Below are positions 10,678 through 34,443 of a stretch of DNA of 64,000 nt, piece by piece. Source of the DNA: Cerrena zonata (lineage: Eukaryota; Basidiomycota; Agaricomycetes; Polyporales; Cerrenaceae). How positions within the stretch are numbered: position 1 is the stretch's first letter; each line of letters opens with the position of its first letter. The position numbers were made by a program, and so were the translations under genes. A model generated the notes under the pieces. It was not told the DNA's origin, searched no databases, and saw only the letters and a program-made list of their open reading frames with translations. The DNA lies in contig JASBNA010000102.1 of NCBI GenBank assembly GCA_038087015.1, positions 37,817 to 101,816 of the forward strand. The letters run 5' to 3'.

Positions 10678-10907
10678 GTCGATGCGGAGTCGCTTGGCCT
10701 CTGCCTGCTTGACTAGTTCCACACAAGCGTCGAGGAGCTTCTCGTCGATGGTAGCGATGTCCCATAATTTCTTCTTCTTCGTTGCAACAGCGGTGAGAAG
10801 TGTATCATGCCACTGCTGGCGCGCAATGGCTTGATACCTTATGAGGGCTCTTTTACCTATCTCCGGTTTCTCGAAGCGGAGGGTATGGTTTTCGATCTTG
10901 AAGAAGA

Positions 10908-12587: not shown

Positions 12588-12916
12588 AGAACTCCATAAA
12601 TGGATAAACGTACTTCTTCGGCCATTCGGCGATGATGTACTGCAGGAGTAGGGCCTTGGCTGAGGTCATCTGTTCCCAGTCGAGGTTACTATCAGCAATG
12701 GGTTTCTTACCGCGTGCCGCATCTTTGAGAGTGAAGACCCCGCTGGTGTGGTCCTTCTCGAAGCTGAGTGTGCGGTCATCGAGACGGGACACGATGGCAG
12801 CGTCTGCGCATGCTTCGGATGTGAAGTACCATAGATCGACGTGCTTGACATCGCGCAGGCGGGTGATACAGCTCTGTAAAGGAATCAATTCTATGCGGGA
12901 CGGGAGTACTTCAGAT

Positions 12917-13631
12917 CACTGGATCGTAGCCCAAATTTTAGGCTTCATGAAAGTAAGGTAAAGTTTTATAAAAATTCTCTTACAAAACATGATTTGTAGC
13001 ACCCAAAAATTGTCAAAAAATGCAGAATTTTAGCAGAATTTGATAAATCATAAAAATCTGTGCAAATACAGCCTTTTGTATTCAATTTTTAGAGTTCAAA
13101 AAAGGTCAATTTTAATATATTTTTTATTAGAGAAAAGTTTACTCTACAAAATTCAAAATTTTGATACATTTTTATTTCTTCAAAAATTCTAATATAATTG
13201 TATATATCAAAATAAAGTACTATGAATATAAAGGCTAAAGAGAGGATATAGATAACTGTTCTTAGTAAATCCTGGTCTTTGTCAATTCTACTATCTAATA
13301 TATATAGTTAGATATGCAATACTACTCATCTTGTCAAATTATCAGTTTACATTTTAAATCATATTTGGAAAAATAAAAATGTATCAAAATTTTGAATTTT
13401 GTAGAGTAAACTTTTCTCTAATAAAAAATATATTAAAATTGACCTTTTTTGAACTCTAAAAATTGAATACAAAAGGCTGTATTTGCACAGATTTTTATGA
13501 TTTATCAAATTCTGCTAAAATTCTGCATTTTTTGACAATTTTTGGGTGCTACAAATCATGTTTTGTAAGAGAATTTTTATAAAACTTTATCTTACTTTCA
13601 TGAAGCCTAAAATTTGGGCTATGATCCAGTG
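12917..13631. mobile_element. CACTG MITE copy B (715 bp)
   Basis: Termini are CACTGG and CCAGTG, with inverted repeats extending over most of each half, and target duplication GAT at 12914-12916 and 13632-13634. No coding capacity. It lies in the gag ORF of the DIRS-type element; removing the element plus one GAT restores the frame (DKS|EVLPSRIEL). It has the same length and end structure as copies A and C. Confidence 0.92.
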
Positions 13632-13935: not shown

Positions 13936-13943
13936 GCGGTGCT
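13936..13943. repeat. 8-bp target-site duplication, left copy (GCGGTGCT)
   Basis: The octamer GCGGTGCT directly precedes the left end of the giant KDZ element and is repeated exactly at 34436-34443 after its right end. Collapsing the two copies fuses the two gag segments of the host retroelement in frame, which is independent proof that this is the insertion site. Confidence 0.92.
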
Positions 13944-15068
13944 CAACCCCTTCAGTCAATATATTACTGTATTACCGTATTAGATGAAGCGCCGACGTGT
14001 CTGCGCAATCACTTCAGATGACCCAGCCGGGTATCGCCGGGAATGCGGACAGTGACTGTGAGATGGCTCACCTTTAAGTTAGGGGAGCGTAGTACATTAT
14101 AGTGCGGGATGGATCGTCTTGGGCATTTGAGATGGTGTGCCTCTGACGATGCGCCCGTTGGACCTTCAGATGGCTGGTCTCAGACACGTAGGCGGCATAA
14201 TTCAATGCGGGGATGGGCCATCTGTAAGTGTTCCTTCCTAGGTTGGGTTATCTGGGTAGCCCTGAGTGCGGTGGGACAGTTGTAAATGGGTCATCTGGGT
14301 AGCTGTGGGGTGCGGTGAGACCGTTGTAGTTGGATTATCTGAAGTAGCTGTGGGCACGGTGGGTCCATTACGGATGGGCTATTGGTGTAAAGGGACTACT
14401 GCGGATGGGTTATCTGGGGAGCGGTAGGTACGGTATGCCCACTGCGGATGGGGTGTCTGGGGTAGCTGCGGGTGTGGTGGCATCGCTGTGGATAGGACAG
14501 CTGAGGTGTCGGATGCAGTGGGCTTACAGGGGGGGATAGGACATCTCAACAGAGGGAGGGTGGTTCTGGTTTTTTGGGGGGAGGAAGAGTCGAATTATCT
14601 GAACCACTGTAGTCATAGTAGGACGACGCAAATGAGGTATAAAGGAAGGCAGTAGATAATTATAAACAGAATTCGTAAGAAAACATCTATACAGTGATGT
14701 TTTATTGCTACAGAGTTAAAACTAATCGATTTATGTCTGAGGGTGTCGGGGAGTAGGTCAGCTACTTATGGCTAGAGAGGGCTTGATGCCATAAATACTA
14801 TACCTACATGACTCATCAGCAAAATAAAACATAGGGAAAGCCATTTATAGGTCAGAGGGCACCAATTACGGTGTCCGCATTTTCCTGAAACCGCGGACTC
14901 CGCATCAACATTAACAAACCGGAACTAGCACAATCGTACCAGGCAGGGTGGCTTAACACAGGTATAGGCAGAGCCTTACGGTATAGAGGTGGGAGATATC
15001 ATCATTGAAACGTTTATGCATCAGGTGTCGAGTGGCCGCAATTTCAGGTGCTCCGTACAATGCGCTAG
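13944..15068. repeat. Left terminal inverted repeat of the KDZ element
   Basis: It matches the reverse complement of 33367-34435 over its length, with mismatches and small indels. At the tip both sides share TTCAGTCAATATATTACT, then TTAGATGAAGCGCCGACGTG. At the inner end both share GTTTATGCATCAGGTGTCGA and lose similarity after GCGCTAG. Between about 14200 and 14520 there is a run of related short units (forms of ggatgggttatctgggtagc followed by gtgggtgcggtg), candidate transposase-binding sites. Inner boundaries are by eye. Confidence 0.88.
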
Positions 15069-15188
15069 TGGTCGAACTTACGCAAAGGGCACTCGGACTA
15101 GTAAGTTGCAACAGTAGATAAGGATAATAATTGAGAAGAGAAAATTACAAAGTAGGCATACACAAAGATTTATCGCTGGCGCATGAGA

Positions 15189-16038
15189 CTAAGTCAACTT
15201 CCGCTGGAGCCGCTCGATGTCATCGCAGATACGACCTGCGCGGTGAGCTAAAGCGAGCAGCTCCTGGCTTAGCGGGAGCTCACCCGGTAGCACATCCCTG
15301 TAAGGGGTATGTGTAGCGCGAACAGGCTCAGACGCAGCACGATCAATCTGCGGGGAATGATTGATTGGAGGGTGCGCTTGGCCAGACCTGACATGTGGCG
15401 GGAGAGGGGGAGGACCCATGGTACCAAGAACTGAAGGAAGTGGCTCCGAGGAGCTTGTAGGAGTCACGTTTGCACTTGAAGTAGAGGCTTGAGCACCACG
15501 ACGTGCTCCAGGAGGGTGCGCCCGTCTCGAACTAGCAGGAGGGCCGGCACCTGTGGTGCGCGTGCGGCGAGAAGGGGCAGGACGATTGGCGGCATCGGAT
15601 GCTGGCTCTTCTGAGTCTTCCGACTCAAGTACACCAAGATGCTTCACCTTCTACAATGGGAGGCATCGGTCAACAAGTGGAATCTAAGGAGGGTAACGTC
15701 TATGCGCACCTTCGTGGGATGGTCAGAGCTACTACGAGGTGAGCGGATCGGCTTTGATAAGTCTGTAAAAGTCATCGCTGTGAATCTTTATTCCACCCTA
15801 TCGCGCGGAAAGGGAGACAAACCTGATCGAGATGGTCCAATTTCCGACTTCTCAGTGAGCGCACCTCCAGGTGCTACAAGTCGACGGATATTGCTGGTAG
15901 GTGCCTACAAATGAGTTATTAAGAGACACAGGGCGACAGAATGGTGCGCGATAGGCATACAAATGTTGTTTCTGGGGATAGGTCCTCATCGACAACATTC
16001 TTCGGCTTCTTGGTGGATTTCTTGGTAGATTTGGACAT
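15189..16038 (-). CDS. Unrecognised 229-aa protein of the KDZ element
   Basis: Four exons (16038-15961, 15904-15823, 15777-15710, 15650-15189) join in frame with consensus GT-AG introns of 45-59 bp. The protein starts MSKSTKKSTKKPKNVVDEDL, a Lys-rich head that could direct it to the nucleus. A Pro/Ser/Arg-rich disordered middle follows, and it ends in a predicted helix (LPLSQELLALAHRAGRICDD). No enzyme motif was found. It lies just inside the left inverted repeat and diverges from the Zn2Cys6-like gene across about 190 bp. Correct splicing with an open frame argues for a maintained gene; its role in the element is unknown. Confidence 0.65.
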
Positions 16039-16230
16039 GTAGGTGAGAGCGAGGAAAGAGGGGACTCAATAATGGTGCAGAATGTATTATCTGGGAGTGC
16101 GTGGGAGTGAGGATAGGACGCCGTAAATGTGACGGCAATGACCGAACAATTACATCTCGAGTAGCCACCGCGCTCGCGGCGGTGGAACTACTTCTCTCAC
16201 GATCTACTCAACACGTACTCCTCGTCGATA

Positions 16231-19200
16231 ATGTCTACATCTTCAAAAGAAGAACCTGAATGGTTACTTACCGCACAAGGAGCTACAGTCGGTGGACTTG
16301 CCGCTGTGGACAAAGTTGAGAATGCGGTGTGGACATACTGCACGCTGTTGCGGGAAGCTGTCTTTAGCTTTCCTGAGGGTGTGTCGGTTAATGAGTACGA
16401 CGAGTTCTTGGAGGGACTGGAGCAGGTATGGGTGGTAAGCAAGTTTAAAGCTTACGCAGGATCTGTAATGACTCCGCAATCAGGATGATGTTGATTGCTA
16501 CGCGGAGGAAGAGCCTCTAGAACAGAAACCGATCCTTGTCGTTCGATTCTTTGAGTTGCTTAAAAAATACAAGAAGGACCATCATCCATTCAATTTGCTA
16601 GATATCTTCTCCTACCAATATAAGGAGGACCCCGCAATCAGCTATGAAGATCTGGCGCTTCCGAAAGAGCGGGGAGCAGGTGCATCCGCCAACGGTATCA
16701 GTTGGCTAGAGGACACGAGTAATGTCATTTCATCTTGAGAATTACTTTATGACTAAATGTAAGTACACAGTTAATAACTGGGGTATCAAACGCGAACGTC
16801 GAGGGCTGCCAGATATCAAGAAGGATGAGACATTATACCTCGGTCGACTGAGTGTGGAACGCTATGCCACGATGATCGAAAAGAGTAAGTGAATGGAATT
16901 GGTAAGATACATGACAGCAATCAGGGATTAATACTGTATACTCTACTATAGATTGCGATATATGGGACTTGGGAGGAGAAGAGGCTCCACCAAAGCTTCC
17001 TGCGGGAAGTCTTACTGACTCCGCAAATCGAGATCTTCCGAAGGAGGATTCGCCAATGGAGGTAGATAGCTCTGAAGTGGTAGAGCCGAGCGAGGAGCCT
17101 ATGGAAGATCACGAGGGCGACGTACCAAGTACAAGGTACACACTTCGCGGGTCGACGTTGGAGCGACGTGCGAAGACTCAAGAGGCGGCCTTGAAAGCAG
17201 CGACATCACGGGAGTCATCTCAAGCAAAAGAGTCTGTGGGAGAGAAGGGAAAGGGGAAAGCGGGAGGAGAAAGTGTTGAGGATAACTCTAGCGATGGGAG
17301 CATCGAGACAAATGATGAAGCCTCAGATAGCGACATCTACGAGTCACCGGGGACACCGAGCGCACTAGTTTATAACGCAAAGCAAGAGTCACTGTGGATG
17401 GGGTCAATAATGCTGAGAAAGCGGTACTGGATGCACAAGAAGTGTCATGAACGACTTAAGGAGTGGCAGCTGGCGGTGAGTAGAGTTCAGCATCACATAA
17501 CTGATAGCGCACTTACACTTACATGCACTGGCATTCAGATGCTTCCTTGCAAGAACTGCGCCAAGACTGGGAAGCCGTGCGTTATCTACCTCGCTCTAAA
17601 CCCTGGGTGTATCGGATGCATGGTTGGTACAGGGAAGCGGTCATGTAGCTTCGTCCCTCACATGGGACAGGCCCACGTACCAATTCCATATAGTAACCAC
17701 GTCGGCTTGTACTTTCACACGATGCTAATCAGCCTCTACATGCAAGGTCATCCTCTCCCACTTGTTCCTCAGAATTTCGAAGAGGTCAACTTTTACCCCG
17801 GGATTACACGCGGGACAAAGTACAATATCGTCATCCCAAAGGATCAGCAAGCAACCGTTCGCGTGGAGGCCGTGCAAAAATGGAAAGAACTGTCGAAGGG
17901 CGGATGGAAGGATATGTGGTATGGATTGCCGTACCCAGTTGCAAGTCAAGCCTACAAGGACCTCAGTAGCCGGGTGAAGGGAGTACGTGCGCGGTATGCG
18001 AAAGCCGTATGGCGAGTATCCGATTTCCCGTCGGACTACGACTACGAGATGGTGAACAAGTACTACCAAACACTAGATGAAGTATCAAAGGTGGCTACTT
18101 GGGAGGCTTTCGACATCTACAAGCATATCCCATATCTACCAACCCCCAACGTCGTGGCGCCGACAGGTGAAGCACTGATGCTGTATCCGCCACCTCAGGA
18201 GCGAGGTTTCTCCCGACAAACTTGGAAAGAACATGTTTCCAAAGGAGGTGATCCACTTTATGGACAAGACAGCGACTACGAGGAAGAGGAAACGGAAGCG
18301 GATGAGCAATCAGGTGACAATGCGGGCGTTGCGGATGGGGAACAAGTACATGTGATGGAGCAAGATGAAGACGTGCCCGTTGAGAATGAGGAGGAAGAAT
18401 CACCAGAGGACGATACAGGGTCAGATTATCCCGGGAGCGATGATGTAGATGACGGTGTTGAAGATGATGCGGACACTGATCGTCAACCGGGTACGGCGGC
18501 AACAGGCGGGGGTAACAAGAGAAAGGCCAAACAGTCTCCGTCAGAGGGTGTGGATGATAAGTACGACACATCCAGTAATGCAGGGAATGATGAGGTGGAC
18601 GAACCGTCAGAGACGCCCACTGGCCCATCGATGCTAGCAAGTCAATCCTCATTGCGGGGACAAGGTCTCTTTGAGGTTCCTCCTAGTGAACAAGGTATGT
18701 AGCGTCACCCCTAGACCATAAGTGCTCACTAAAACAGGGGAACCTGTTCTCAGCAAAGCTATTAAGTGACGAAGAGCTTATGGATGTTGATGACATTCCA
18801 GGTGCGCAGTTATAGACTCTCGACGACAATCACAAGTCTGATAGTGGGATCTATTTCGAATATAGATTCACGAGACCCTTCTCCACCAATAGGCACCCCG
18901 CTTGCACCAGTGAAAGCCAGGATGAAGGCGAAACAACCAGGGACTAATCCACGACCGATCAAGAGAGCGCGATTTGAGTCGAGCGGGGATGGAACATCGG
19001 GTGATCGAAACGATGATTCTGAAGATGAAGATGATGCAAACATGGATGCAGGAGGTACTCAAGAAGGAGTGCAAGAGAAGGACAGTGCTGCAGGCGTAGT
19101 CGGCCTTGTGGGCGGAACGCAAGTTGAGCTAGCTGAGAAGAGCCAAAAGGTAGGTTGTGGGGATAGAAATGCGCTGAATCAGGCTTAATATTCTGCAACC

Positions 19201-20151
19201 GTCTAGGTATCGGTCGGTATACAAGACATCGAGGCCCGCTTCAAAGAGCTTGAGGAGGCAGTAGCAGGTCTCAAAGCGGGCTCAGCTCTCGCTGCTACAG
19301 TATATGAGATGAAGGAATGGTTAGATAACGCGGAAAAATCGCTCCCCGAGATGTGGACGCAGATCGAGGAATTGAAAGCCCAACAGGACATCTTGCGGAC
19401 CAGGCTTGAGCAAAGCGAGATTGCATTTGCTGAATATCGCACCGGTATAGAGGATCGAATCCCAATCTTGGTGCAGCAGGAGGTTCAACGTGTACTGTCC
19501 ACAAGGCAAACCAATCCGGCGGCGGCTGTCGGATTAGCAAGTACTCAGCAGGTGCCTAAGCCCGATAACAGCACTGGTCAGGAAATGTCAATTGTCACCG
19601 CTCCCATTGAGAAGGCTACGACATCGTCATCCGCAGACAGCCATCTCCTGACTCACTCTGTCCCGCCACTATCTCAACTAGGATCACCGCATGTACTTAA
19701 CCCCGCACTTTCACCATCGCGCACACCATCCGTTGCTCCATCTCACCACACAACACCATTACCAACGACAGATTCAATTAGCAGCAACATTCACAATAGT
19801 TATGGACCCCTCTCTCCTATGTCATTTGCTCGCCTACGAACTCGAGATGCCTCCTCCGCATTCGGTATTAGCGGGCTATCCGTTCTCACCACCTTGTCTG
19901 ATGACTCTCCCAGGACATCGGTTGCACCTACTCAGCAACTAGCTTCAGCTTCAGCTAGGTCCACATCAAGCGATCACACACCCACTGGCCCACAATCACC
20001 CAGACAACAAACGTCGACATCGACGCATGAGCATCAAGATGGCCAAGATTTCGATCACAGTATTTCTGCTTTGAGGATATCAGCAGCAGCCGAAGAAACG
20101 TCTGGTGTACAATCCGGAGGAGGGGTTCGATCTCATGAGGAGGAGATGTAG
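16231..20151 (+). CDS. Zn2Cys6-like acidic DNA-binding candidate, KDZ-element cargo
   Basis: Eight exons (16231-16425, 16484-16718, 16771-16884, 16952-17475, 17539-18694, 18754-18801, 18845-19149, 19207-20151) give 1173 aa in one frame. At about residue 360 the cysteines are spaced CX2CX6CX9CX2CX8C (CKNCAKTGKPC, then GCIGCMVGTGKRSCSF), within the fungal Zn(II)2Cys6 binuclear cluster pattern. Long Asp/Glu-rich tracts flank it, and a coiled coil (IEARFKELEEAVAGLKAG onward) precedes a Ser/Thr/Pro-rich tail. A nuclear regulator or accessory DNA-binding factor for transposition is a fair inference. The intron at 17476-17538 is 63 bp, stop-free and in frame, so an unspliced form would add 21 residues just before the cluster. 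The C-terminal end lies 250 bp from MITE C. Confidence 0.75.
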
Positions 20152-20263
20152 GTACTCTTCACAGCAGCACTTGTCGCGGGCGTATGTAGGTCTGAAAACA
20201 ATGACATTTTCTTGCATGTATATACGTAGTTCGAAAAATTGTTAGTTATAATGTTCGAGTTCT

Positions 20264-20399
20264 CTAGCGTTTACCACCTCGACCACGACCGCGGGTTACC
20301 TTTCCTCGGCCACCACCAACTTTGATGGGAGCATCATCCTCCGCGTCAGCAAATCTCTTCGGTGTGGTATGCTTACGAAAGCTGCGCCGTCTTCGGTCT
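20264..20399 (-). pseudogene. Severed C-terminal tail of the acidic 811-aa gene
   Basis: Directly beyond MITE C the minus strand continues the interrupted frame: after the last codons of the 811-aa gene (SEDAD) come a basic stretch (RRRRSFRKHTTPKRFAD), an acidic patch, and an RG-rich end (VGGGRGKVTRGRGRGGKR) with stop at 20264-20266. The tail is about 47 residues. Its codons stay open only if MITE C plus one TCT duplication is removed, so this was the original C-terminus. Confidence 0.8.
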
Positions 20400-21114
20400 C
20401 ACTGGACCGTAGCCCAAATTTTGGGCTCCATAAAAGTAAAGTAAAATTTTATAAAAAGTCTCTTACAAAAGATGATTTTCAGACCCAAAAAATGATCTAA
20501 AAATTCTGAATTGCAACAGAAATTAATAAATCACAAAAACCTGTGCAAATTCAGACTTTTATATCCACTTTTCAGAGTTCAAAAAAGCTCAATTGTCATA
20601 CATTTTTTGCTGGGGCAAAATTCAGTATGCAAAATTCAACATTTTGATATACTTTTATCTTATCAAAAATTATAATATAATTGTATATATTAAAATAAAA
20701 TTTCATGAATAGACAGCCTAAAGAGAAGATATAGACTACTATTCTTAGTACAGCATAGTCCCTGTCAATAAGAGTATTTGATGGAGGTATTTTGGTATAC
20801 AATACTATGCATCTTGCCAATTTAGCAGTTTAAATTTTATATCAGTTTAGGAAAAATAAATGTGTGTCAAAACTTTGAATTTTGTATTCCAAATTTTGCT
20901 CTAACAAAAAATGTATCAAAATTGAGCCTTTTTAAACTGTAAAAACTGGATACAAAAGTCAGAATTTATATAGGTTTTTGTGATTCATCAAATTCTGCTA
21001 CAATTCTGAATTTTTAGATCATTTTTTGGGTCTAAAAAGTATGTTTTGTAAGAGACTTTTTATAAAATTTTACTTTACTTTTATGGAGCTCGAAATTTGG
21101 GCTACGGTCCAGTG
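20400..21114. mobile_element. CACTG MITE copy C (715 bp) inside the KDZ element
   Basis: Ends CACTGG and CCAGTG, target duplication TCT at 20397-20399 and 21115-21117, and the same AT-rich inverted-repeat structure and length as copies A and B, though it is visibly more diverged from them in sequence. It has no coding capacity. It interrupts the 3' end of the 811-aa gene; the gene now reads a few codons into the MITE and stops at 21102. Confidence 0.92.
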
Positions 21115-23816
21115 TCTGCATCCTCTGAGCCAACTGCGGGGGCCTTCTTCTTACCGCCGCGCCTTACAGGTGTTGATGTCGTCGCCGCATTTTGACTCGA
21201 TTCCGCCGCATTTCTATCCATCTGCGCGGGTAGCGATGGTGGCACAACCGTCTCAGGCGTTGAAGCTATCCGGACCAATTTCTTCTTACAAGGAGGTGGT
21301 TTAGGGTATCTGGAGGCTAGGGATGAAATTGACTGTAAAGCTGGTGCTATAGATGATGGAGGTGGAATGATAGGGTTTGCTGCGGGAACATTTTCACCCT
21401 CGACGGGGATGCATTCTGCAAGTGCTTTGAGGGTATGGTTGAAGACATCAAAGACTCGCAAAGTGAGTAGTGAACTCAGAAAGTGAGTCGGTTTGTCAAC
21501 TGGGTCCTCCTCGGCATCGAAGTCAAACAACACCAAAGACATGTCGCGGAGAAGAAGGCCTATGAAGAGCAATCTTGCTTCCATCATAGGTAGGTCGTGA
21601 AAGGATTGGTGACATTCCTTCTTCCATTTGGTGAGAAAGCGAAGTATTGAAGCTACCGTACCCTTGTCCTGGTGACAGTCAGAAGGCAGATGCGCGGCGT
21701 CACTTTCCCAGCTAATCCAGTCAAAGGGCGTTGGTGGAAGCCGTACTTGTACCTGAAAGAAGTGGCGTTAGACATATTCCAGCGTAGTAATCAACTTTCC
21801 TACCTTCTTTCCGTTGTACCAATCCACAATTGCCAAGAAATCGGGATTGGTTGATAAAGCGCGGAGGAAGGGAACCTTCTTTTCAGCCATGTCAGAGACC
21901 CATACCGGGGGTGCAAGAGGTGGAACTATGAAGTTTTGACCGGTTTCGGATGTTTCTAGCTCGCTCAGCATTGCGAAGAGTTCGTCGTCAATCGCATCAA
22001 CCGGCATAAGAGGTTGAGCGCAATGTGGCGTGGAAGCTGTAAAGGACAACGGTGCGAGGTTTGTTCATATGGGTGAGCGATAATCAAACTGCTTGGAACC
22101 AACGACTCACCTGTGTTTTCCTCCGCATCCTCAGTCTCAACGTCAGATAGGTCGGCTTCGTCCTCTGACCCATGTTGCCTAATGGCGGATAGTACCAGAT
22201 CCTCCTCCAACTCGTCATCATCGTCATCATACATCTCGCCATAGTCGCTAGCACCTTCTGGTGGACCCGCATCCTCCCCATCGGTCTCATTCTCCGAGTC
22301 AGACTCGATCCGTTTACGAGTGGTCCTCTTCTTCTTGATCATAGGCACTGGTGGAGGTGTCTCAGATCGACTTCCCTCCTCATTTTGTACCTGCTCTGCG
22401 GACGTGGCTTCCTTGGCAACACCTGAAGCGAGACCCTTGGTATATGCGCACATCCATTTGGGGGTGTACTTGGCCTCCACAATCTCACCGTCTTGCTTTA
22501 CCCCCTTCCATCTGAATGGACGAATATCACCCTCACCGGCAAGATACATCCGCTGGCGTTCAAGTAGATGGATAAGCCAGTGATGAAGACGTTCCACACC
22601 TAGCTGACCCGGTTTCCGCAAATACAAGATCTTATCACCCTCCAATGCTTCCGGTGGGAAATACATCTTGTCAAGATAATGATCTCCATCATTAGGGAAG
22701 TCGATGTATGGAGGAGCAGTAGAGGGGTTTCCAGCCGCCATACCTACAATAATATCATTGTCAATACCCCAAAGCACAGCTGAGAGAGGCCAGAACTTAC
22801 AGTAGTGAGTAGTAAAGTACGTCTGCAATACCTTAACACGGTCCTTTGCTAAAGTGAACGTGTGTATGGTTGGTAACAAACGCTCCCCTCGAGAGTCAAA
22901 CGTGATATAGGTGGATGATGCCTCGTCGGGGTCGTTCATTTGGACAGTCCATGGTGGATAGTCTTGAACATTCCATTTGAACGGATTCTTGTAGTTTTGA
23001 AGGAAAGTGCGCTGCCATGTATGTAAGGGCATTGTCTCCTTACTATGGTACATTAGCATCGATAGTCGATGGATGAGTTGAGAACATACATTGAATTAGC
23101 ATGATCCGTTCCGAGGGCAACACTGGGACGATTGGAAATGATAATCATGTGCGCCCCAAACCAATTCTGCGCAGAGTAAAGAACGTTGTTGATGAACTCG
23201 GTGTAGACAAGATCACCATATCTAAGCGATGATTAAGATTGGTGAACATACAATGGATATGATTGGGCTTACACGGCTTTGGTCTCTTTAGACCCTGTTC
23301 CTTGGTTCATCAACTTCGCTTCTGCGGCCCAAGCCTTGCGCTCGTCGTCCTCCAGACCTGCAAACATCGCTTTCGTCACAGCATGATAGGCAGTAAGACG
23401 GTGCATCTTCTTCTTCTTTGCATAGGCATCCACATCCTCCTTAATAGAATCCCAGCAGCTACGGGCCCAGAGCTTGCGGGCGGAGACCTTCTTCAGGAAG
23501 CCATACCGTTCGGGCTTGAGATGGCTTGTGTCGCGAACGAGTCGGTCATACATGTACGAAATAACAGTCTAGAAATATAGTGGTTAGAATGAACCTATCA
23601 GAGGGAGAACAGTGGCAGTATTACCTTGCGCAGCTTTGTGCATTCATCGTGTCCGGTGATGGAGCATTCACGAGCAAGATGTATAGAGGCTTTGATAGCT
23701 ACAATACGACGAGCGCGGGACTTTTGAGCACCCAAGTATGCATCAAAATATGTACGAAGGAATTCCTGTTGCACAGGAGTGAGCCCGTCCTCGGGGGCGG
23801 TACCGATAGTTGGCAT
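21102..23816 (-). CDS. Acidic unrecognised protein of the KDZ element, C-terminus truncated by MITE C
   Basis: Six exons (23816-23625, 23568-23273, 23221-23090, 23042-22111, 22036-21804, 21752-21102) join to 811 aa. The N-terminal part is helical (TPVQQEFLRTYFDAYLGAQK, then a Lys-rich segment). The middle has a globular stretch rich in aromatic residues (WNVQDYPPWTVQMNDPDEAS), and an Asp/Glu-rich region with KKKRTTRKR follows. No catalytic motif was recognised. The stop at 21102 lies inside MITE C; the original end was at 20264. A 57-nt in-frame segment in exon 4 (about 22745-22801) begins GTAAGT and ends TTGTAG and may be a further intron. The start at 23816 was chosen over an upstream ATG at 24026 because it leaves about 200 bp of shared promoter with the divergent TET/JBP gene. 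Confidence 0.7.
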
Positions 23817-24020
23817 ATCCAGGAAGTGTAAGGATGCGGGTTGTGACGGAGAGAGGTGCTCATATTTATGCCGGATCGTTTGTCTCTTCAGTCGGTGTTT
23901 CCCCGTCTCGCTGTAATCACCGTCGCTGAGAATGCGGCGGTCACATGGGAACGGTGGGAACTCGGGAGGTATTGCTTTTATTACGTGGATCGCAATATAA
24001 TTTTGTATCCTGCTGCCACA
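23817..24020. promoter_or_regulatory. Putative bidirectional promoter between the acidic gene and TET/JBP
   Basis: Only 204 bp separate the chosen divergent start codons. Both reading frames can be extended into this space (ATG at 23868 for the + gene, at 24026 for the - gene), so the true starts could be further in. The compact layout would co-express the two cargo genes. Confidence 0.4.
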
Positions 24021-25351
24021 ATGCAATCAGAACCAGCTCTTTTTCAAGAGATGCATGTATATACTACGTATATGCATCAGCTGTTCAAGGTCAAGTTGGC
24101 GAGACAGACAGGGTTGGCGACATCTGCCGCTTCCGCGCATCCACCCAAGATGTCCGATGAATGTAAAGAAGAATACATTGAGGTGGTGCGCGTTCTGGTT
24201 CGGGCATTTCTCAACCCAGGTGCGCTTTGCAAAGATGTAGTCAGGTATTGCATCTCCGCTGAATGTATATGAAGTCAAGGTCAGCTGGGACATTCAGAAA
24301 TACCAATTGGAATGTACACGTAGATGCATATCTGGGGGAATGCAGAGAAAGGAGATCTCTCTTGCTAGAGACTTTCCAGGTGTAAGATCCGGTATCCGCG
24401 CCGTCCTCAATCCCCGCACTGTCATCGACGTTTATGGTCGGATTATTGTTTGGATACTATCCAGTATTCTTCCCAAGCGGATTCAGGTATGGAACTACGG
24501 ATTCCATTCTTTACAAATGTTGATATTGGGCAGGATATATACCAGAAATGCGCTGGTGAGATTGCGGGGGAGATGCAAAACGAGCTCGCAGTGCATAGAC
24601 AAAGCAGGTCTTGGAGGTTTTTGTCTACTCTATTCAGCCAGGTCAACGATTCTATCCCCCCTGGCTTGATCAATTTCTCAGCCGCATGGTTTATGTTAGG
24701 ACGTGAGGTATGATTGGTGACGTCCGTATTGTCAAATGCGACTCCATATTCATGACATTGGTTGCACAGGGCCGCGAGGATAGTCTCATAACATCACCGA
24801 TTCTTAGAAGCGCGCGTGGGAAGCAATGGATGCGCGATATGGCAGAAGCGGGGACCTTATTGTCGGGCGTGCTGCGCATTATGCATCCTGATCAATACCG
24901 CATGGGCTATGAAGTCATGACTGGCCTCATGCACTACGAACAAGTCAATCTGGCCCTCTCCACTTGGCCCTCCGTTTTCAATGCGGCGACCGTCATCTCT
25001 AATCGCTGTTGCCCGATGCATCGTGACAACAAAGGGTCGTTCCCTTTGTTCGACATCTTGATATCAACCGGAGACTACAGTAACGCCCCCATCTCCATTC
25101 TTCCCGTAGGTATTCAATTTCCCAACAGTCCGGGGTCAATGTGTGGTTTTAGTGGCTTTGGCTTTCGACACGGAGTTGCGGGTGCTGATGGTGCGCGCAT
25201 CTGTCATGCATTTTACATGAGGAGGGAATTGCAAATATTCACGGGGGTTGTTCCATGCAGCTGGATGACGCAGGATGTCTACCGCAGATGGATTGGGGAG
25301 TCAATAGGTAGGAGTCGCTTTCATTGGAAACTTGACATAGATAATATATAA
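24021..25351 (+). CDS. TET/JBP-type 2-oxoglutarate/Fe(II) dioxygenase carried by the KDZ element
   Basis: Four exons (24021-24244, 24324-24486, 24534-24707, 24770-25351) give about 380 aa. The double-stranded beta-helix core reads, in order: His-x-Asp iron ligands in CPMHRDNKGSFPLFDI (H271, D273), a GDYSNAPISILPVG strand turn, the distal iron ligand in SGFGFRHGV (H321), and the 2-oxoglutarate-binding Arg in GARICHAFYMRRE. This spacing and the small, nearly catalytic-only size match fungal TET/JBP proteins, which oxidise 5-methylcytosine in DNA to hydroxymethyl- and further oxidised forms (established for a Coprinopsis member). It is 37 bp upstream of the transposase gene. Inferred role: remove or rewrite cytosine methylation on the transposon. 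AlkB is excluded by the surrounding motifs. The start is uncertain (23868 possible) and the 3' end may be spliced differently. Confidence 0.85.
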
Positions 25352-25388
25352 CACGAGGATGCGGTGGAAATATAACCTTGTCCTTGCA

Positions 25389-28300
25389 ATGAAGCGACGT
25401 GCTAAGAAAGATGTCCATGATGCACTGTACACTCCGCAACAAAAGCGACCACGACATGCGACAGGTCCTTCAAAGCTACCTAAGACCCCAATCATCATTG
25501 AAGACTTAAACCTGCGCAAAAAGAAGAAACAGGTTCCCATCGGACATCTGTTTCAGGAGGATGTCGCATCCAGCTCCAATCCACGTTCTAAAAATCTGCA
25601 AGATCTCAATCATTCTTCAACAGCCTCCTCACACGATCTTACGTCGGGAATCACTAATCCACAAGATGAGAATGATGGCCCCGCACCCTTGTTTGAAGGC
25701 ATTGTCTTCGAGCAGTTGGTTACTGACGAGAGGCAGAGACATGTATGTATCTCTCCCGTAATGAATGTAACTCAGCTCACTCTGATGGACAGTCTGCCAC
25801 AACGTATCTCAATGCCTGGATGCCCAAACGGGACCTCTTTCTGGCAGAAATGGTCGAGCGCGAAGCACCGCCCACGCCCGCATTATGCATGAACTGCGAC
25901 AGCCCGATGAAGTGGAGGTGCCATGATTGCTTTGGAGAGCCCACGTACTGTAGCAACTGCTGTCACTCACTCCATTCACGTGCTCCTTTCCATCGAGTAT
26001 CTCGCTGGAACGGTACTGCGTTCTATACTTCATCACTGCGCAAGACAGGCCTGATGCTATTCATGGGCCATGGAGGTCTTCCTTGTCCCTCCGCGCTCAC
26101 AATGTACCCTTCCTCTACGGGTACAACTCCTTCTACGAGTGTGGAATCATCACCCTCCACAAGTCCCGTTCATCTTCCAACAGATCTTCCACCTAACGCG
26201 GACCGTCATCTTGCCCTGCATGCTGGCCCAAATCAGGAGCGGATGGACGAGTATATGGAGCTACTTGATGACTCTAATGATCATACGTTCGATCAATTTG
26301 ACTTGTCAATGTTTGGCTCTACTTCCGCGGCATCCCCTATCCCATCTTCACCCCCGCACTCATCGCCACCTTCTATGTGCGCATCCCCAGAGCAAAGCAG
26401 CAGCAGCAGCAGTAGCTTTCATCAGAACCCACTTAATGCTTCTCAGTTAAGCGATGAAGAGGTTTTTGATCTTCTTGACTACGATGATACAGAAGACGAG
26501 ATGATGGAATTCGAAACCGCGGGGATCAACACATCATCCTTGCGTTATCCTAAGGGCCTTGACAAGCACGGGAATCCATGGATGACCATAGTCGACATCA
26601 CCGGTGTACATCATTTGTCTGTTCATTTCTGCGACTGTCCTTCAGCATCTTCTTGTGACATACAGCTCATTCGTCAGGGATTGTATCCTGTCACCTACGA
26701 TCGTCCGCAGACTGCCTTCACATTCCGGGTTCTTGATGACTTTGATCTTGAGAACCTTGAGACGAAGGCATCTACTCAAAGATACTATGCTAAGCTGTGT
26801 AGATTGACCCGTAATGCATTTCCACAAACGGTTCCTGATCGATACCGAGAGATGCTGCGCATCATGCGTGAGTGGCGCAATCTTCAGATGAGGCGTCGCG
26901 CGGGCTTCATTGGCAAAGACTTGGGAAAGACTGTTGAGCCCGGAGGACTAGCAATGTTTTGCCCAACATGCCCTCAGCCCGGTGTCCACCTTTGGCAGTT
27001 AAATATTTGTAAACTATAAGGCAGAATGCCCTAAAGTGTTTTACAAACTTTTAGGCATTCTGCCTTGCTTTTTTGATTTGTGTTATGTAGGGCAGACTGC
27101 CTATATGCTTAGTCATCTGTATAGGGCCCAATGTATTGCCTAATAGGGTATATAGGCCCTATTTGGGCGCTTTTTTTGCGAATTGGCAGGCTCACCTCTT
27201 TCTGCTTACAAATCTGGTTCCACAGCCACATGTATACTTTCTAAATTGGGTAGGTGGCCCTGGGGTGGGTGGCTGTGGCTACTACTCACCTTCCGCTTAC
27301 TATGGGCGCTTATGTCAGCACCCCCTATTGCCTATTTGGGAAAGTGGTTTGGGATAGGGTGGGGGATGGTGCAGGGGCCTATACCAAGCATTAGAACATG
27401 TACTAGGGAGTAAAAGAACGGCATTTTTACGCTGAATCCATATCTGAAACCCCCATGTCATTTGGATAAGAACTGGGAGAGTTATGACAGAAATAGTAGG
27501 TATAAATCGATAAAAGGGGGGTTGTAATTGAAATAGGGTATGAAGGAGCAGTCAGAATATTAAGCAGAGGTAGTATGCTCCTCTACTATGTTGGGAAAGG
27601 GTGTATACAAGATCCCAGGTTGATTGGATAAGAACTGCATGTTCTGTATTTGGAATACCCCCAAAATGCGAAATTAGGGGGGTACCCTAGGCTATTGGTG
27701 GGGAACCAGCCATTCCCTTGACTATCAATGATAATAAGTTCGAGATATAGTATGGGGAAGCTCATATTCCAGTCCGCTTGGAATCAGCACAATGTATGGG
27801 TATGCTATGGTTGAAATACTTTATTTAGGTACCAGGAGGAGAACATCTATTGTATCTTCTGTTCTAATGGATAGAATATTCTGTAATACTCATATTATGC
27901 TGGAATGTACTATCTTAGGTGATACCCAACACCGCTTTGTGATAGAATCAATAATGAGTGATAGGGGGAGGAGGAGGAGGGATGGGATGGGACAGTAATA
28001 TGACGTGTCAGAGCGTGTTTCTACGCGTCAGGATTGTTGATGGACGTGTCAAATATGCAGGAAACAACATATACCAATTTTCTTAGTTATCAGACATGAA
28101 ATGGTAGAGGGGGAGTGAAGGTACCCCTGGGGAGGGGGAGGAGGTGCAGGTATTTGTATCTCACCAATCCCTACACCAATGGGGCTCTACTTCTGGATGT
28201 TGGGAGTTCTAATATATACTGGATGATATCTAGGATTACAGAGCTGCAGGTAAGGAGGTACCCCTATAAATCACCTCCCAATATTCCCCTATTACTGCAT

Positions 28301-31300
28301 GCAAACCAGCATACACCCACCCAAAGACATATAGAGCAACATTCATGGAGAAAGAAGACTGCTTGTGGAGGTTTTCAAGTATCCCTCACAGTTCTATCCA
28401 GCTGCCCTGGCCATAGGACACACTTTTTGTTAACACTAGGGTTAGTGTACCCTACATGCAAGTTTCACTCAAATTGCAATTCTCTAAGACACTCCTTCCT
28501 CTATACCATTGGTCAGGCTGGAAGTTCTATAATGGTTGCTGGGGATTCAGGAAGTAATTACTGTCCCTCATCCAGGCTATCCCCCCTCATGTTATTTGGT
28601 CTAGTAGTAAGACCTGTAGGTCCCAAAAGAGGTGCAATTTGGGGTATTTCTGAGTCAGGAGGAGAGGGGAGATGGGTAGCATTTTGGAGGGTGACCTCTA
28701 TGTCTGAGGACAAATGGAGGGGCAAAATTGGAGTAATTTCCAAGGGCTATAGGCACAACAAAACCGCTTATTAATATCATAAGTATATCCCTGGCAATTG
28801 TGGACACAAAAATAGCTTTTTCGCCCATGTTCCACAAAGTGGTTAAGCTATGTAGGTCCAACCACTGGTATGTAGGGCCTGCGGAGCTACATACCTCTAG
28901 AGGAATACTACATCTATATTTTTACCAACTGGACTATCCATAGAGCCTTCCCTTCCATAGTTATTTGAGTATATGTAGAGGTGATAGCCTATTTTCGCAT
29001 TTTTCACCCTGTTAAAGAGGTATTAGTATGAGGGATGACTCTATGAGGATGTGGGTTGGAATATGAGCTTCCCCATACTATATCTCGAACTTATTATCAT
29101 TGATAGTCAAGGGAACGGCTGGTTACCCACCAATAGCAGGGTACCCCCTTAATTTCGCATTTTGGGGGTATTCCAAATACAGAACATGCAGTTCTTATCC
29201 AATCGACCTGGGATCTTGTACACACCCTTTCCCAACATAGTAGAGGAGCATACTACCTCTGCTTAATATTCTGACTGCTCCTTCATACCCTATTTCAATT
29301 ACAACCCCCCTTTTATCGATTTATACCTACTATTTCTGTCATAACTCTCCCAGTTCTTATCCAAATGACATGGGGGTTTCAGATATGGATTCAGCGTAAA
29401 AATGCCGTTCTTTTACTCCCTAGTACATGTTCTAATGCTTGGTATAGGCCCCTGCACCATCCCCCACCCTATCCCAAACCACTTTCCCAAATAGGCAATA
29501 GGGGGTGCTGACATAAGCGCCCATAGTAAGCGGAAGGTGAGTAGTAGCCACAGCCACCCACCCCAGGGCCACCTACCCAATTTAGAAAGTATACATGTGG
29601 CTGTGGAACCAGATTTGTAAGCAGAAAGAGGTGAGCCTGCCAATTCGCAAAAAAAGCGCCCAAATAGGGCCTATATACCCTATTAGGCAATACATTGGGC
29701 CCTATACAGATGACTAAGCATATAGGCAGTCTGCCCTACATAACACAAATCAAAAAAGCAAGGCAGAATGCCTAAAAGTTTGTAAAACACTTTAGGGCAC
29801 TCTGCCTTAGGATTTCCAAAAAGTTTACAGCAAAGGCTGCGGTGTCAACCTACCTGCAAATTGGGAAACCAATCAAGAAGAGTGAGTTCGTGTGTGGATG
29901 TCTTGATCCTGCGCTGACCATTTGTAGTGCATGGAAGTATATGGGTACCGTTCTTGGCGACGGAAACTTCAAGCAGGAACACCTCAAGATGAAATATCCC
30001 GACCAAGATATTGCCTTAAGTGACGGCCATGCGTATATGGTTGGCAAGACTGGGTTTGATGAGTACATGAAGGCAGCTCCGAAACCTGGGAAGGAGGTAC
30101 GTGTTGTTTATGTCACAATATAAGTTAACATTACCAAGTCACGCAGACTCCTACCTGCCACGAGCACGATGCTGTGAAAAGCCAAAATACTACCCGCGCG
30201 CACTTAGATGCTACTGGGATAGGCGCAATGGCCTGCGGACGTCACGGTTGCTTTTATCCGCACTCAGTCATTAATTTCGACAAAGGGGAAGGGTCAGTAT
30301 GGTGTTCCTCTGTTTTTACACCTTGCTGAGGGAATGAAACAGATACCGCTACATGGACTACGCGTTTATGAATGCGCTCAACTATATATCCTTCCTCCTT
30401 ATCTTCATGATTATGTACGATATCATGTGCCAGTGGTTTCCAAACTTTCTACATCGCATTCACTTCGTCAAGCACCTTATCAAGCTTCGCGATGGCCTTG
30501 TTCTCAAGCGCGCCATAGGTCTATTTCACGTCCACAGCCATGTCAAGAAATGCTACCCGCGGTATGCTTCAACCTTTATTCGTGGTGCGGGGATTGTGGA
30601 TGGCGAAATCATTGAAACTCTTTGGCACATTCTCAACGATACCGCAAGTAGTGCGAGATCCATGTCTTGGTTTCATCGGCAAGAATATATTGACTGTCAC
30701 ATGGCCGACTTGAACTGGAAGAAACTGATTCGCATGGGTATTGACTTTTCTTTACGGTTTGAGTGCGCATGATACTAATTGACATCTTGGATTATCTTCA
30801 CATAGTACCCACACTCCTTAGAAAGTGGGCCGCTTGCACGGAGCAGGTTCAAGACAGCCAGGAGTATTTTGATCAGCTCTCGTCTCACGTTGGTCCCACA
30901 TGTGTTGCACAATGGACACAGGATGAAGAGCGCATGCAGACTCAGCGCGACGAAAAGGTCGAAGTAATGGATGAGTTCGATGTTGAAGATGACAAAGGTC
31001 ATTAATCTTTAAACACTTCGATTTTTTCCACTAATCGCACTTACATATGCATTACCCGCCAGCCCCAGGGAAGGCAACAGTTCAGCGCACTCTTGCGGAA
31101 GAGGAGGATCAGTTCAACATCCCACTTGGATCCTCCGCATGGATTGCATTGGGACTGAAACTAGAGGAGGAGCAGTAGGTCTCCCATCACTTAGGTATCC
31201 CGATGTTGCTTATGTGTACGGTAGACTTGAACTCCTCAACCAAGTGCGCAAGATGGGCACGGGCGCCACCTATGATCGGCAGATCTCCCTCTCAACAAAG

Positions 31301-32256
31301 CATCGCCGACTACAATCAAAGATAGACTCTTTCATCTCACAGTCCTCAGGCTTTATAGGAGATATGGATGAGGTTCCTCAGACGGTCATTGATTCTGACT
31401 GGTCAAACGAAGACCAAGAAGATGACGATTGCATTGGTATGGGTGTTCACTCATTCGATGACATACCCGTCTGCGAGAATGTTCTCCCAGAGCTCATATC
31501 ACTACCTCTACCATCCTCATTCACACGAAGTCAACGGCTTGATCGCTTGCGCCATCTTTCAAAGTGCGAGCTTCAACTTCGAGAAGGGCAAGCGAACGAC
31601 TCTCTCCATAATTTGAGGGTCGCAATTGCACATAAATCATTTGTCTTTCGCTCTCGTATTCGAAAAAATGCACCCACCACCGGTTATTCAATGCGACTCA
31701 GAAGCTACGGCGATGCGCACGCAGTCCAAATGACCATCGATCAAGCTGCGAAGGTCTATCGCACTGCTAGGAAGGCAATGATCCTCCTTGGAGCCGATGA
31801 AATCCTCCTGTCGAAGTATCAGGTCTTGCTCAGAGAAGACCTTGCCTCCAGCACTGCTGTGGCTGAGCCCAATGCGCGTGGGCAGAGTCGTGTGAAGTTA
31901 TCTTGGATTTGGCATATGAGATCGCAGTCAAATAACCCCGAGTTCCTGAATGAAAGTGAGTCTTAACTCACTCTTATATATATTGATCCGTATAAGCAAT
32001 ACTGATGTATGCAGTGCTTCGTGTCAACTGGCTTCGCGCAAAGTCAAGGCGCGATCGCTGGCAGGAGGAGAAAATTCTTTTGAAGTCAGAACTTATTTGG
32101 ACAAAGAATTTCTTTTCGAATAGGAAGATACTCTGGATTGACAGAGCCAAAGATACCACTGCCGGTGTTCAATGTTATGCTCTCAAACAAGCCGTCACCT
32201 GGGATCGACTCAGTTACCTTGCGCAGAAAGCGCTGACTTCGATCGGAGTACAGTAG
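25389..32256 (+). CDS. KDZ (Kyakuja-Dileera-Zisupton) transposase
   Basis: Nine exons (25389-25742, 25793-27008, 29831-30096, 30147-30292, 30343-30737, 30806-30997, 31063-31174, 31225-31955, 32015-32256) give 1217 aa in one frame. A basic head (MKRRAKKD) leads to a Cys/His cluster near residue 160 (CMNCDSPMKWRCHDC, YCSNCCHSLHSRAPFHR), the CxC2-like domain typical of KDZ transposases. The RNase H-fold catalytic region shows VLGDGNFKQEHLKMK (D567), MIMYDIMCQWF (D687) and GAGIVDGEIIETLW (E749), followed by the conserved HRQEYIDCHMADLNWKKL. A helical C-terminus (LSWIWHM, VNWLRAKSRRDRWQEE) completes the family pattern. The second intron of this model contains the 2.8-kb element 27019-29807; removing it keeps the frame, so the gene may still work. 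Two acidic Ser-rich linkers separate the domains. Confidence 0.9.
27019..29807. mobile_element. Near-palindromic 2.8-kb TA-target element nested in the transposase gene
   Basis: Left end AGGCAGAATGCCCTAAAGTG and right end (reverse complement) AGGCAGAGTGCCCTAAAGTG, flanked by TA on both sides (27017-27018, 29808-29809). The inverted repeats run about 750 bp (27019-27771 and 29057-29807) and are almost identical. Each tip also holds a small hairpin: AGGCAGAATGCC is repeated inverted (GGCATTCTGCCT) 23 bases later. TA duplications point to the Tc1/mariner/pogo group. The 1.3-kb centre has only one long open stretch (28115-28774) with no start codon and no recognisable domain, so the element is non-autonomous. 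Near-identity of the arms implies youth. Confidence 0.85.
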
Positions 32257-32353
32257 CCTCATGTCGTAGCCTTTGTTTGTACATATTTGTGTTAATATCA
32301 ATAATGCCCTAACCTACTATGTTCCCGCATCTTTTCTCTCTTCCATAAGCACT

Positions 32354-33057
32354 ATGGCCGGAACGACTGCAACATTACCCCCGCCGACCTGGCCGCAGCC
32401 AGCTGATCTCTTCACTGGAACCATCAAACTTGACCTCGCAGGTCCGGTGGTATGTAGGTACTACCGTATTGGACATGCGCTTTATCGCTTCGTACACCAT
32501 CCCGAGGCAACCTCTGATACAGTGCGGCGTCGGTGGAGAATTGGTCTGCACACTGAAGTGGTGAGCATATCCCATCGTATATATGTACTAGCTTCATTTC
32601 TCGCAGGTTGCTTTAAAACAAGCAATTTCCGCACTTATGATCTCGGGATGCACCGGCGGCCCATTCTTCGCACGGTGCACATTCCCCTGGTTGAACGAAG
32701 TGAATCCGGACCTCTTCATTATTGATTGGTCCAAGGTGACACCTCTCCCGCACTTTCCACTGCAGATGTGGATGACCCCCTACCTCGTCACCGTAAATGA
32801 TTGGTGGACCTATGACCCTCAACAAGAGGGCACGCCCCCAGTCTGGTGGAATGCTACTGAAGCTGAAGTGGCGGTACGACTCCTCGATCTCCAATTGCAT
32901 GCGCAGTCTAATTGTTTAACAGGATTTCCTTCCTCTATGTACACTCCCTGTGTCCATAGTAGATGAACAAAAACGTCTACTCCAGGAGTCCAATGATGTC
33001 TTGAGAACACTGCAACGCTTAGTGTCCCAACCATTTGCTCGCACCGTATCCAAGTGA
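32354..33057 (+). CDS. Unrecognised 202-aa protein downstream of the KDZ transposase
   Basis: Three exons (32354-32560, 32607-32873, 32923-33057) join in frame to 202 aa. The N-terminus is Pro/Trp-rich (MAGTTATLPPPTWPQPADLF), the middle is rich in aromatic residues (FPLQMWMTPYLVTVNDWWTY), and the C-terminus is an amphipathic helix (SIVDEQKRLLQESNDVLRTL) that could form a coiled coil. No known motif. It is the last gene before the right inverted repeat and starts 97 bp after the transposase stop. An unspliced second intron would end the protein at 32966 without the helix. Confidence 0.6.
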
Positions 33058-33366
33058 TCTAGCTGCTATTCTATGGACTGAGATGCGCCGATGTGTTTTT
33101 GATGTATTCTGGATAGTTGAGAGCAGTTTGTCTCTCATTTTTGACGATAATATTAATCAGAGCCAATTACTTTGTGACTCGAGAGCGACGCTCCTTTTCT
33201 TTCACTAAGATGTCTCTCTGCGCGCGCGGTCTTCCCGATGTGATGGTGACAAGATCCGGAACACGTAGAGGAGTTATCATCTCTCTCGCTTCGTTCCTAT
33301 GACTTTCTTTCTTTACGTGCTACATATTGTACCTAGTGGTTGAGCTCTTTGTTTTCCGACACCTTG
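33058..33366. other. Spacer between the last cargo gene and the right inverted repeat
   Basis: No gene or repeat seen in these 309 bp. An open stretch at 33117-33302 has no start codon and no codon pattern of a gene. Confidence 0.4.
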
Positions 33367-34435
33367 CTAGCGCGTTGTATGGAGCACTTGAAACTGCAGC
33401 CACTCGACACCTGATGCATAAACATTTGCATGATGATATTTCCCACCTCTATACTGTAAGGCTCTGCCTATACCTGTGTTAAGCCACCCTGCCTGGTACA
33501 ATTGTGCTAGTTCCGGTTTGTTAATGTTGATGCGGAGTCCGCAGTTTCAGGAAAATGCGGACACCGTAATTGGTGCCCTCTGACCTATAAATGGCTTTCC
33601 CTATGTTTTATTTTGCTGATGAGTCATGTAGGTATAGTATTTATGGCATCAAGCCCTCTCTAGCCGTAAGTAGCTGACCTACTCCCCGACACCCTCAGAC
33701 ATAAATCGATTAGTTTTAACTCTGTAGCAATAAAACATCACTGTATAGATGTTTTCTTACGAATTCTGTTTATAATTATCTACTGCCTTCCTTTATACCT
33801 CATTTGCGTCGTCCTACTATGACTACAGTGGTTCAGATAATTCGACTCTTCCTCCCCCCAAAAAACCAGAACCACCCTCCCTCTGTTGAGATGTCCTATC
33901 CCCCCCTGTAAGCCCACTGCATCCGACACCTCAGCTGTCCTATCCACAGCGATGCCACCACACCCGCAGCTACCCCAGACACCCCATCCGCAGTGGGCAT
34001 ACCGCACCTACCGCTCCCCAGATAACCCATCCGTAGTGTTCTCATCTCACTCACAGCTAACCCAGACGGCTTATCCGCAATGAACCTATCACGTACATTG
34101 GAGATGAATCATCCCCGCGGTATATGTCCCTATATGTTCGTCCCAGACCGACCGTTCTTACTAACTAGTCGTTCAACGTCGCCCGCATGAGATAGATCAT
34201 CTCAATACTCCTCTACTCCTAGAGCAAGACAGCTCATCTCATCAGTCTCCGCCCACCCCTCTGAACCTCTGGATGATCCATCCCGCACTCTGATACACTG
34301 CACCCCAGGTGAGCCATCTATCCATCTCTCTCCGCATTCTCGGTGATTCCCAGCTGGGTCATCTGAAGTGATTGCGCAGACACGTCGGCGCTTCATCTAA
34401 TATGGTATTATAGTAATATATTGACTGAAAGGTGT
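33367..34435. repeat. Right terminal inverted repeat of the KDZ element
   Basis: Reverse-complement partner of 13944-15068, slightly shorter (1069 versus 1125 bp) because some of the GGATGGGTTATCTGGGG-type units are missing or changed (about 33950-34370). The tip reads AGTAATATATTGACTGAAA before the TSD. Divergence between the two arms is clearly higher than between the arms of the nested 2.8-kb element, so the KDZ element is older. Confidence 0.88.
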
Positions 34436-34443
34436 GCGGTGCT
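34436..34443. repeat. 8-bp target-site duplication, right copy (GCGGTGCT)
   Basis: Exact match to 13936-13943, immediately outside the right end of the KDZ element. On the minus strand it lies within the 16th-19th codons of the host gag ORF. Confidence 0.92.

Follow-up and report, generated by a model that had tools for sequence, protein, structure and literature searches.

We analysed a window of 64,000 nucleotides from the polyporalean basidiomycete Cerrena zonata (contig C102, bases 37817-101816, of an assembly of 55.5 Mb in 171 contigs), which contains an exactly bounded element of 20,493 bp (13944-34436; 16.9 kb without two nested insertions). The element carries a KDZ transposase gene and a TET/JBP dioxygenase gene and, judged by its ends, target-site duplication (TSD) and protein domains, is very probably a TET-carrying (TET+) cut-and-paste DNA transposon of the Kyakuja type (KDZ group). 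What the genome offers is a near-identical, exactly bounded TET+ pair at two sites, together with empty-site paralogues and a recurring gene list. With at least 86 KDZ loci and at least 47 TET hits above the cut-off in one genome, what a transposon gains from TET becomes testable by comparing TET+ with TET-less (TET−) elements, and in a first such comparison, of mutation patterns in 15 pairs, lasting protection was not seen.

The second copy, of 16.9 kb (C5:168237-185151), aligns with 13944-34436 as three gap-free blocks (99.4-99.7% identical) and ends there; it has a different 7-bp TSD and neither of the nested insertions. A partial third copy on contig C52 is 100% identical to the C5 copy across 2,427 compared bases; it is cut off by the contig end on one side and meets a stretch of N on the other, so that its lack of a KDZ hit is uninformative. 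When the ends of the window and C5 elements and of relatives on C4, C53, C94 and C10 were paired by eye, an exact 7-bp direct duplication was found in all six pairs (CGGTGCT, TCCCAAA, CCGAAAG, TGTGAGA, ATTTAAT and TCCAGTT). All six have 5'-CA..TG-3' termini, the 12 ends reading inward as CAACCCCTTCAG or CACACCTTTCAG, with CA at the start of every one. The exact occurrence of GCGGTGCT at both junctions would suit an 8-bp duplication and hence a KDZ element of Zisupton type; however, the C5 copy differs at the eighth base (C vs G), and 7 bp with CA..TG ends is the rule in all six pairs, none of which has the 8-bp TSD of a Zisupton. The eighth matching G is the element's own last base, met by a chance G preceding the target, so that the element ends at 34436 and the TSD is 7 bp. 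The other copies thus rule out the Zisupton assignment, which we regard as barely credible.

Joining the flanks restores an ATG-started frame, and the encoded peptide has two intact relatives in the same genome (97% and 95%), each a 318-residue open frame. Loci L053 (C11:489064) and L054 (C3:2248911), which are paralogous rather than allelic empty sites, align over 595 bp through the insertion point at 98.5% and 97.6%, with only one single-base gap, in one paralogue and off the junction. The element entered a multi-copy gene as a single block and duplicated 7 bp.

Six genes lie within this block, namely A, B, C, TET, the KDZ transposase with a CxC2 cluster, and F. The KDZ (PF18758, 95.5 bits) and CxC2 (PF18803, 89.5 bits) domains of the transposase are both above the cut-off, as is the TET domain (PF12851, 44 bits against a cut-off of 34.9). 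A tally by eye places genes B, C, TET, KDZ and F at nine loci with order and orientation unchanged (C102, i.e. the window, C5, C4, two on C53, C1, C37, C40 and C96). Across the genome, a script reduced 141 KDZ matches to the 86 loci, and in 48 of them a TET hit, whatever its listed score, lies no more than 13 kb upstream; one of these 48, L031 on C3, has only an under-cut-off hit about 10 kb upstream and was classed as TET− in the CpG-ratio comparison below. Conversely, a same-strand KDZ hit lies 1.5-4 kb downstream of 42 of the 47 over-cut-off TET hits and 5.2-12.2 kb downstream of three, with none on the contig for the remaining two.

An earlier note on this DNA had described a complete, exactly bounded giant KDZ transposon with inverted ends, an 8-bp duplication, restoration of the target frame and a TET/JBP gene among six genes. 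Its core is borne out by the second copy with another TSD, the paralogous empty sites and the gene order of the relatives. Joining the flanks does restore the frame, through a junction that two intact paralogues cross ungapped; a copy with the same gene order and a different duplication, which the note had proposed as support, exists on C5, and relatives share the gene order; and the KDZ and TET domains are above the cut-off, while genes A, B, C and F each have relatives elsewhere in the genome. The bounded ends and direct duplication therefore stand, at 7 bp instead of 8. The window copy cannot be called complete, as it contains two insertions (20400-21114 and 26987-29839) that are missing from C5, and its use as the reference unit is not supported, the uninterrupted copy being the one on C5.

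The product of gene B contains a cluster of cysteines, CxxCx6Cx9CxxC with a further C 6 or 8 residues on, in nine of nine sequences (the window, P0001 and seven loci), and fungal Zn2Cys6 clusters are spaced in this way. It matched none of the Pfam zinc-cluster families, a model of its core (predicted local distance difference test, pLDDT, 71; predicted TM-score, pTM, 0.69) had no PDB match at E 0.001, and a large protein set yielded one relative. Gene B is likely, from the invariant cluster, a DNA-binding helper. Gene A has three matches in its own genome (the window, C5 and the C4 relative at 45%) and gene F has 29, while the structure model of gene C reached a mean pLDDT of 39. The scanned pieces of A, B, C and F matched no Pfam family above the cut-off.

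The TET protein matches QCA50_020192 of C. zonata and, second, QCA50_004714, presumably from the C5 copy. Its best solved relative is Coprinopsis cinerea CcTet (PDB 7vpn, 7w5p), of which it keeps the HRD metal ligands, the second His, the following Arg and the equivalents of Gly331 and Asp337 (numbering after Kojima), although the match amounts to only 55 bits over about 150 residues. As in AG-type TET+ elements, the gene lies within both ends in the window and C5, with an HxD..H triad and the Asp337 equivalent. Among four related subfamilies of the same genome, the ratio of nonsynonymous to synonymous substitution rates (dN/dS) of the TET domain was 0.07-0.13 in six of six comparisons with dS below 1, which share sequences and are not independent; of the other 30 among 36 pairs, four had dS of 1.9-2.9 (ratio 0.20-0.29) and 26 were saturated. 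These values indicate that in the related subfamilies TET is kept for function while the elements multiply. Might it instead be a functionless passenger, hitch-hiking with the transposase? One copy (L082, C12:55843) reads HRN, its metal-ligand Asp replaced, where the near-identical L083 on C17 keeps HRD, and for 38 of the 86 KDZ loci the 13 kb upstream contain no TET hit, so that TET is dispensable for some KDZ elements. Against this stand the selection test, the position of 45 of the 47 over-cut-off TET hits upstream of a same-strand KDZ hit and a domain frame that is open in both the window and C5, which together make a passenger role very improbable.

Over 16,928 bases, 82 differences separate the window copy from the C5 copy, one of them in a nested element. 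Of the remaining 81 differences, 76 are transitions, and 65 of these fall at CpG, compared with 16 expected from the CpG share of C+G bases (1756/8352; p ~4e-33); CpG was lost at 57 sites in the window copy and at eight in C5. The base preceding the mutated CpG is near-evenly distributed (15-18 each), a pattern that does not resemble the hypermutation at TCG in rusts to which Kojima refers. In the target-gene paralogues, used as a control, the bias is weaker but still present (20 CpG transitions among 61 differences). CpG transitions came to 101/168 in ten other young TET+ pairs and 27/40 in five TET− pairs (p 0.47), although with only five TET− pairs a modest difference would be missed. The diverged pairs L076/L078 and L077/L079 (TET+) and L084/L085 (TET−) were left out of these sums, the identical pairs L072/L073 and L016/L017 add zero differences, and the near-identical pairs may include cases of a single insertion represented by both haplotypes. 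L034/L035 entered the TET+ sum though only L034 has a TET hit; without it the TET+ figure is 82/119. The simplest reading is that 5-methylcytosine (5mC) is deaminated in both the TET+ and the TET− class.

These results bear on whether TET keeps the element permanently unmethylated, so that its copies escape 5mC-driven decay. The observed/expected CpG ratio of the element (0.84-0.87), set against that of the two nested elements (0.22-0.23) and that of the flanks (0.92-0.93), would agree with such protection. However, the ratio is no lower in TET− KDZ loci (median 0.945, n = 24, against 0.87 in TET+ loci, n = 6), most differences between the two copies are CpG transitions, and TET+ and TET− pairs decay alike; the strong form of the proposal is already refuted if the decay signature is methylation-driven. 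As the same CpG decay is seen in both classes, TET appears to leave no lasting shield, and we rejected permanent protection as improbable. The earlier note's view of a transposon carrying its own DNA-methylation eraser thus survives in part: the conserved catalytic residues and the purifying selection in relatives fit it, while the CpG decay of the window copy argues against lasting self-protection. Alternatively, TET could re-mark rather than erase: the oxidised bases, spread over many repeats and placed in trans as well, would be a signal in themselves. Maps of oxidised methylcytosine (oxi-mC) in Coprinopsis and Laccaria point that way: the main text of Kojima 2025 (PMC12730594) describes oxi-mC around Kyakuja and other repeats and, citing others, across many Coprinopsis repeats, and passages of PMC8889193 report its enrichment in retro- and DNA transposons. 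The lack of a TET+ versus TET− difference in our pairs is also compatible with it. As these maps come from other fungi and not from C. zonata, we regard re-marking as possible but doubtful.

A bolder reading, to which we give somewhat less than even chances, is that the lineage keeps TET under strong purifying selection even though resident copies decay by CpG transition much like their TET-less kin: the enzyme would work only for a short time when the element is mobilised, or serve the entire KDZ population in trans, without shielding copies for good, and the conserved accessory proteins, including the six-cysteine one, would be parts of the transposition machinery. In our main reading the KDZ transposase would pair the CA..TG ends, excise the element and cut the target with a 7-bp stagger, with gene B, through its invariant cysteine cluster, probably acting as a DNA-binding helper. 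TET would oxidise methylated bases and briefly ease silencing while the element is expressed and mobilised, and might do the same in trans for its relatives. The window copy is unable to make a normal transposase because of the non-autonomous element within the gene, and it has decayed at CpG sites as methylated repeats do.

The class itself is already known, and the C. zonata element is a further case, not the first. The main text of Kojima 2025 (PMC12730594) describes complete TET+ DNA transposons, places Kyakuja in all five Agaricomycotina orders with TET+ elements, including Polyporales, to which C. zonata belongs, and reports that Polyporales hold only TET+ Kyakuja. For the Laccaria families it gives 7-bp TSDs and CA..TG ends. 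It also proposes an escape from silencing; citing others, it notes that hypermutation is undetected in Agaricomycotina. Our element shares with these transposons the KDZ-group transposase, the AG-type TET, the 7-bp TSD and the 5'-CA..TG-3' ends, and its KDZ domain is accompanied by the CxC-type cluster of Kyakuja. Cerrena has no occurrence in that main text, and no account of Kyakuja accessory genes was found in the text sections and figures consulted. CxC2 precedes the intact KDZ elements of Pleurotus, according to passages of PMC7641404. KDZ1-KDZ3 of Cryptococcus neoformans (PMC12810828) are likewise mobile, with a KDZ transposase with a cysteine cluster and terminal inverted repeats (TIRs), but are about 9-11 kb long, have CxC1 and 4-8 bp TSDs, and no TET gene is mentioned in the passages describing them. 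A literature search, mostly of titles and with Iyer 2014 aside, found no earlier account covering this species, long inverted ends, accessory genes that recur as a set, or such tests of mutation and selection.

Several points weigh against our interpretation. The Kyakuja placement draws on TSD, ends and domains, and the two Laccaria families of Kojima (in the main text of PMC12730594) have no TIRs, whereas the C. zonata element has about 1.1 kb of inverted ends. The proposed roles in transposition, expression and methylation are predictions from sequence. The dN/dS values come from relatives, the comparisons of the window's own subfamily being too diverged (saturated). Finally, the KDZ loci with no TET hit upstream show that not every KDZ element needs TET, and the CpG signature counts against lasting protection by TET.

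Table 1. Features of the Cerrena zonata element and its flanks (window positions; gene limits as marked)
Feature	Position	Strand	Remarks
Whole element, TET+ Kyakuja type (very probable)	13944..34436	+	C5 copy aligns exactly from 13944 to 34436; termini CAACCCCTTCAG / CACACCTTTCAG common to relatives
Left TSD, CGGTGCT (7 bp)	13937..13943	.	identical to 34437-34443; present once in the paralogous empty sites L053/L054
Right TSD, CGGTGCT (7 bp)	34437..34443	.	exact match to 13937-13943
Left outer terminal inverted repeat	13944..14118	+	~171 bp, 82% to right end
Left inner inverted repeat	14398..15068	+	671 bp, 98% to 33367-34037
Gene A, small protein of unknown kind	15189..16037	-	open reading frame; terminal exon 15192-15650, 5' end approximate
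Gene B, acidic protein, probable coiled-coil at its end, invariant six-cysteine cluster	16232..20151	+	limits and splicing approximate; could be two genes
Gene C, unknown protein	20260..24026	-	one exon split by nested element; limits approximate
Nested 715-bp element, CACTG..CAGTG, CACTA-like ends	20400..21114	.	3-bp duplication TCT; missing from C5 copy
TET/JBP dioxygenase gene	24369..25351	+	domain exon 24707-25348, domain frame open; 5' part approximate
KDZ transposase gene with CxC2 cluster	25359..32256	+	interrupted at 26986/26987; limits approximate; frame reads through site in C5
Nested 2,853-bp non-autonomous element, CA..TG ends, long TIRs	26987..29839	.	7-bp duplication CGGTGTC; missing from C5 copy
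Gene F, small unknown protein	32345..33058	+	conserved exon 32592-32963; limits approximate
Right inner inverted repeat	33367..34037	-	671 bp
Right outer terminal inverted repeat	34272..34436	-	

The inverted ends do span about 1.1 kb, as the earlier note had stated, but they consist of two pairs of repeats split by a stretch that cannot be aligned (approximately 14119-14397 against 34038-34271). A search of the genome located the inner repeat in just two elements, the window copy and the one on C5, and window-type ends matched the ends of other elements over the outer 80-176 bp only, at 72-84% identity. Within single elements the two ends match each other over 690 bp at 98.6% (C53), 1,188 bp at 92% (C4) and 1.79 kb at 99.3 and 99.7% in the 4.0-kb relatives on C94 and C10. 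Both ends within one element seem to become alike. The two 4.0-kb elements (C94:41962-45969 and C10:144925-148936) consist almost entirely of these inverted repeats and have the outer ends of the big element and 7-bp duplications, resembling fold-back derivatives.

Both nested insertions interrupt genes of the window copy. The shorter one breaks a gene C exon whose frame stays open in C5. The longer one splits the transposase gene, whose frame enters the insertion and stops at 27019, and the window copy lacks the uninterrupted transposase gene of an autonomous element. The ends of the longer insertion have 47 matches in the genome, with the two arms of a copy counted singly; with ends read by eye, seven of seven copies of the family have exact 7-bp flanking duplications and six have a CA terminus, the C4 copy having TA. 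These flanking repeats and CA ends identify 26987-29839 as a non-autonomous element with Kyakuja-like ends. An intron or cargo was considered and rejected, as the segment is missing from C5 and belongs to a repeat family with its own 7-bp TSDs. It may be a parasite that KDZ transposases move and that also puts them out of action. One copy of the family (C32:164101-166955) adjoins a KDZ domain hit starting at C32:166953.

Elsewhere on the genome, C18:397173-404465 holds genes B and F and one good terminus, with no listed TET, C or KDZ hit between; it is an apparent internal-deletion derivative. The target gene has seven matches in the genome, two of which are its split halves in the window; its peptide matches no Pfam family above the cut-off, and this multi-copy gene with its 318-residue frame may itself be repeat-derived. 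Outside the element, 10905-13631 contains repeats of about 0.3-0.7 kb in both orientations that are related to the nested element at 20400-21114; the CpG ratio is 0.09 in the repeat at 12916-13631 and 0.97, at 36% G+C, in the cluster as a whole.

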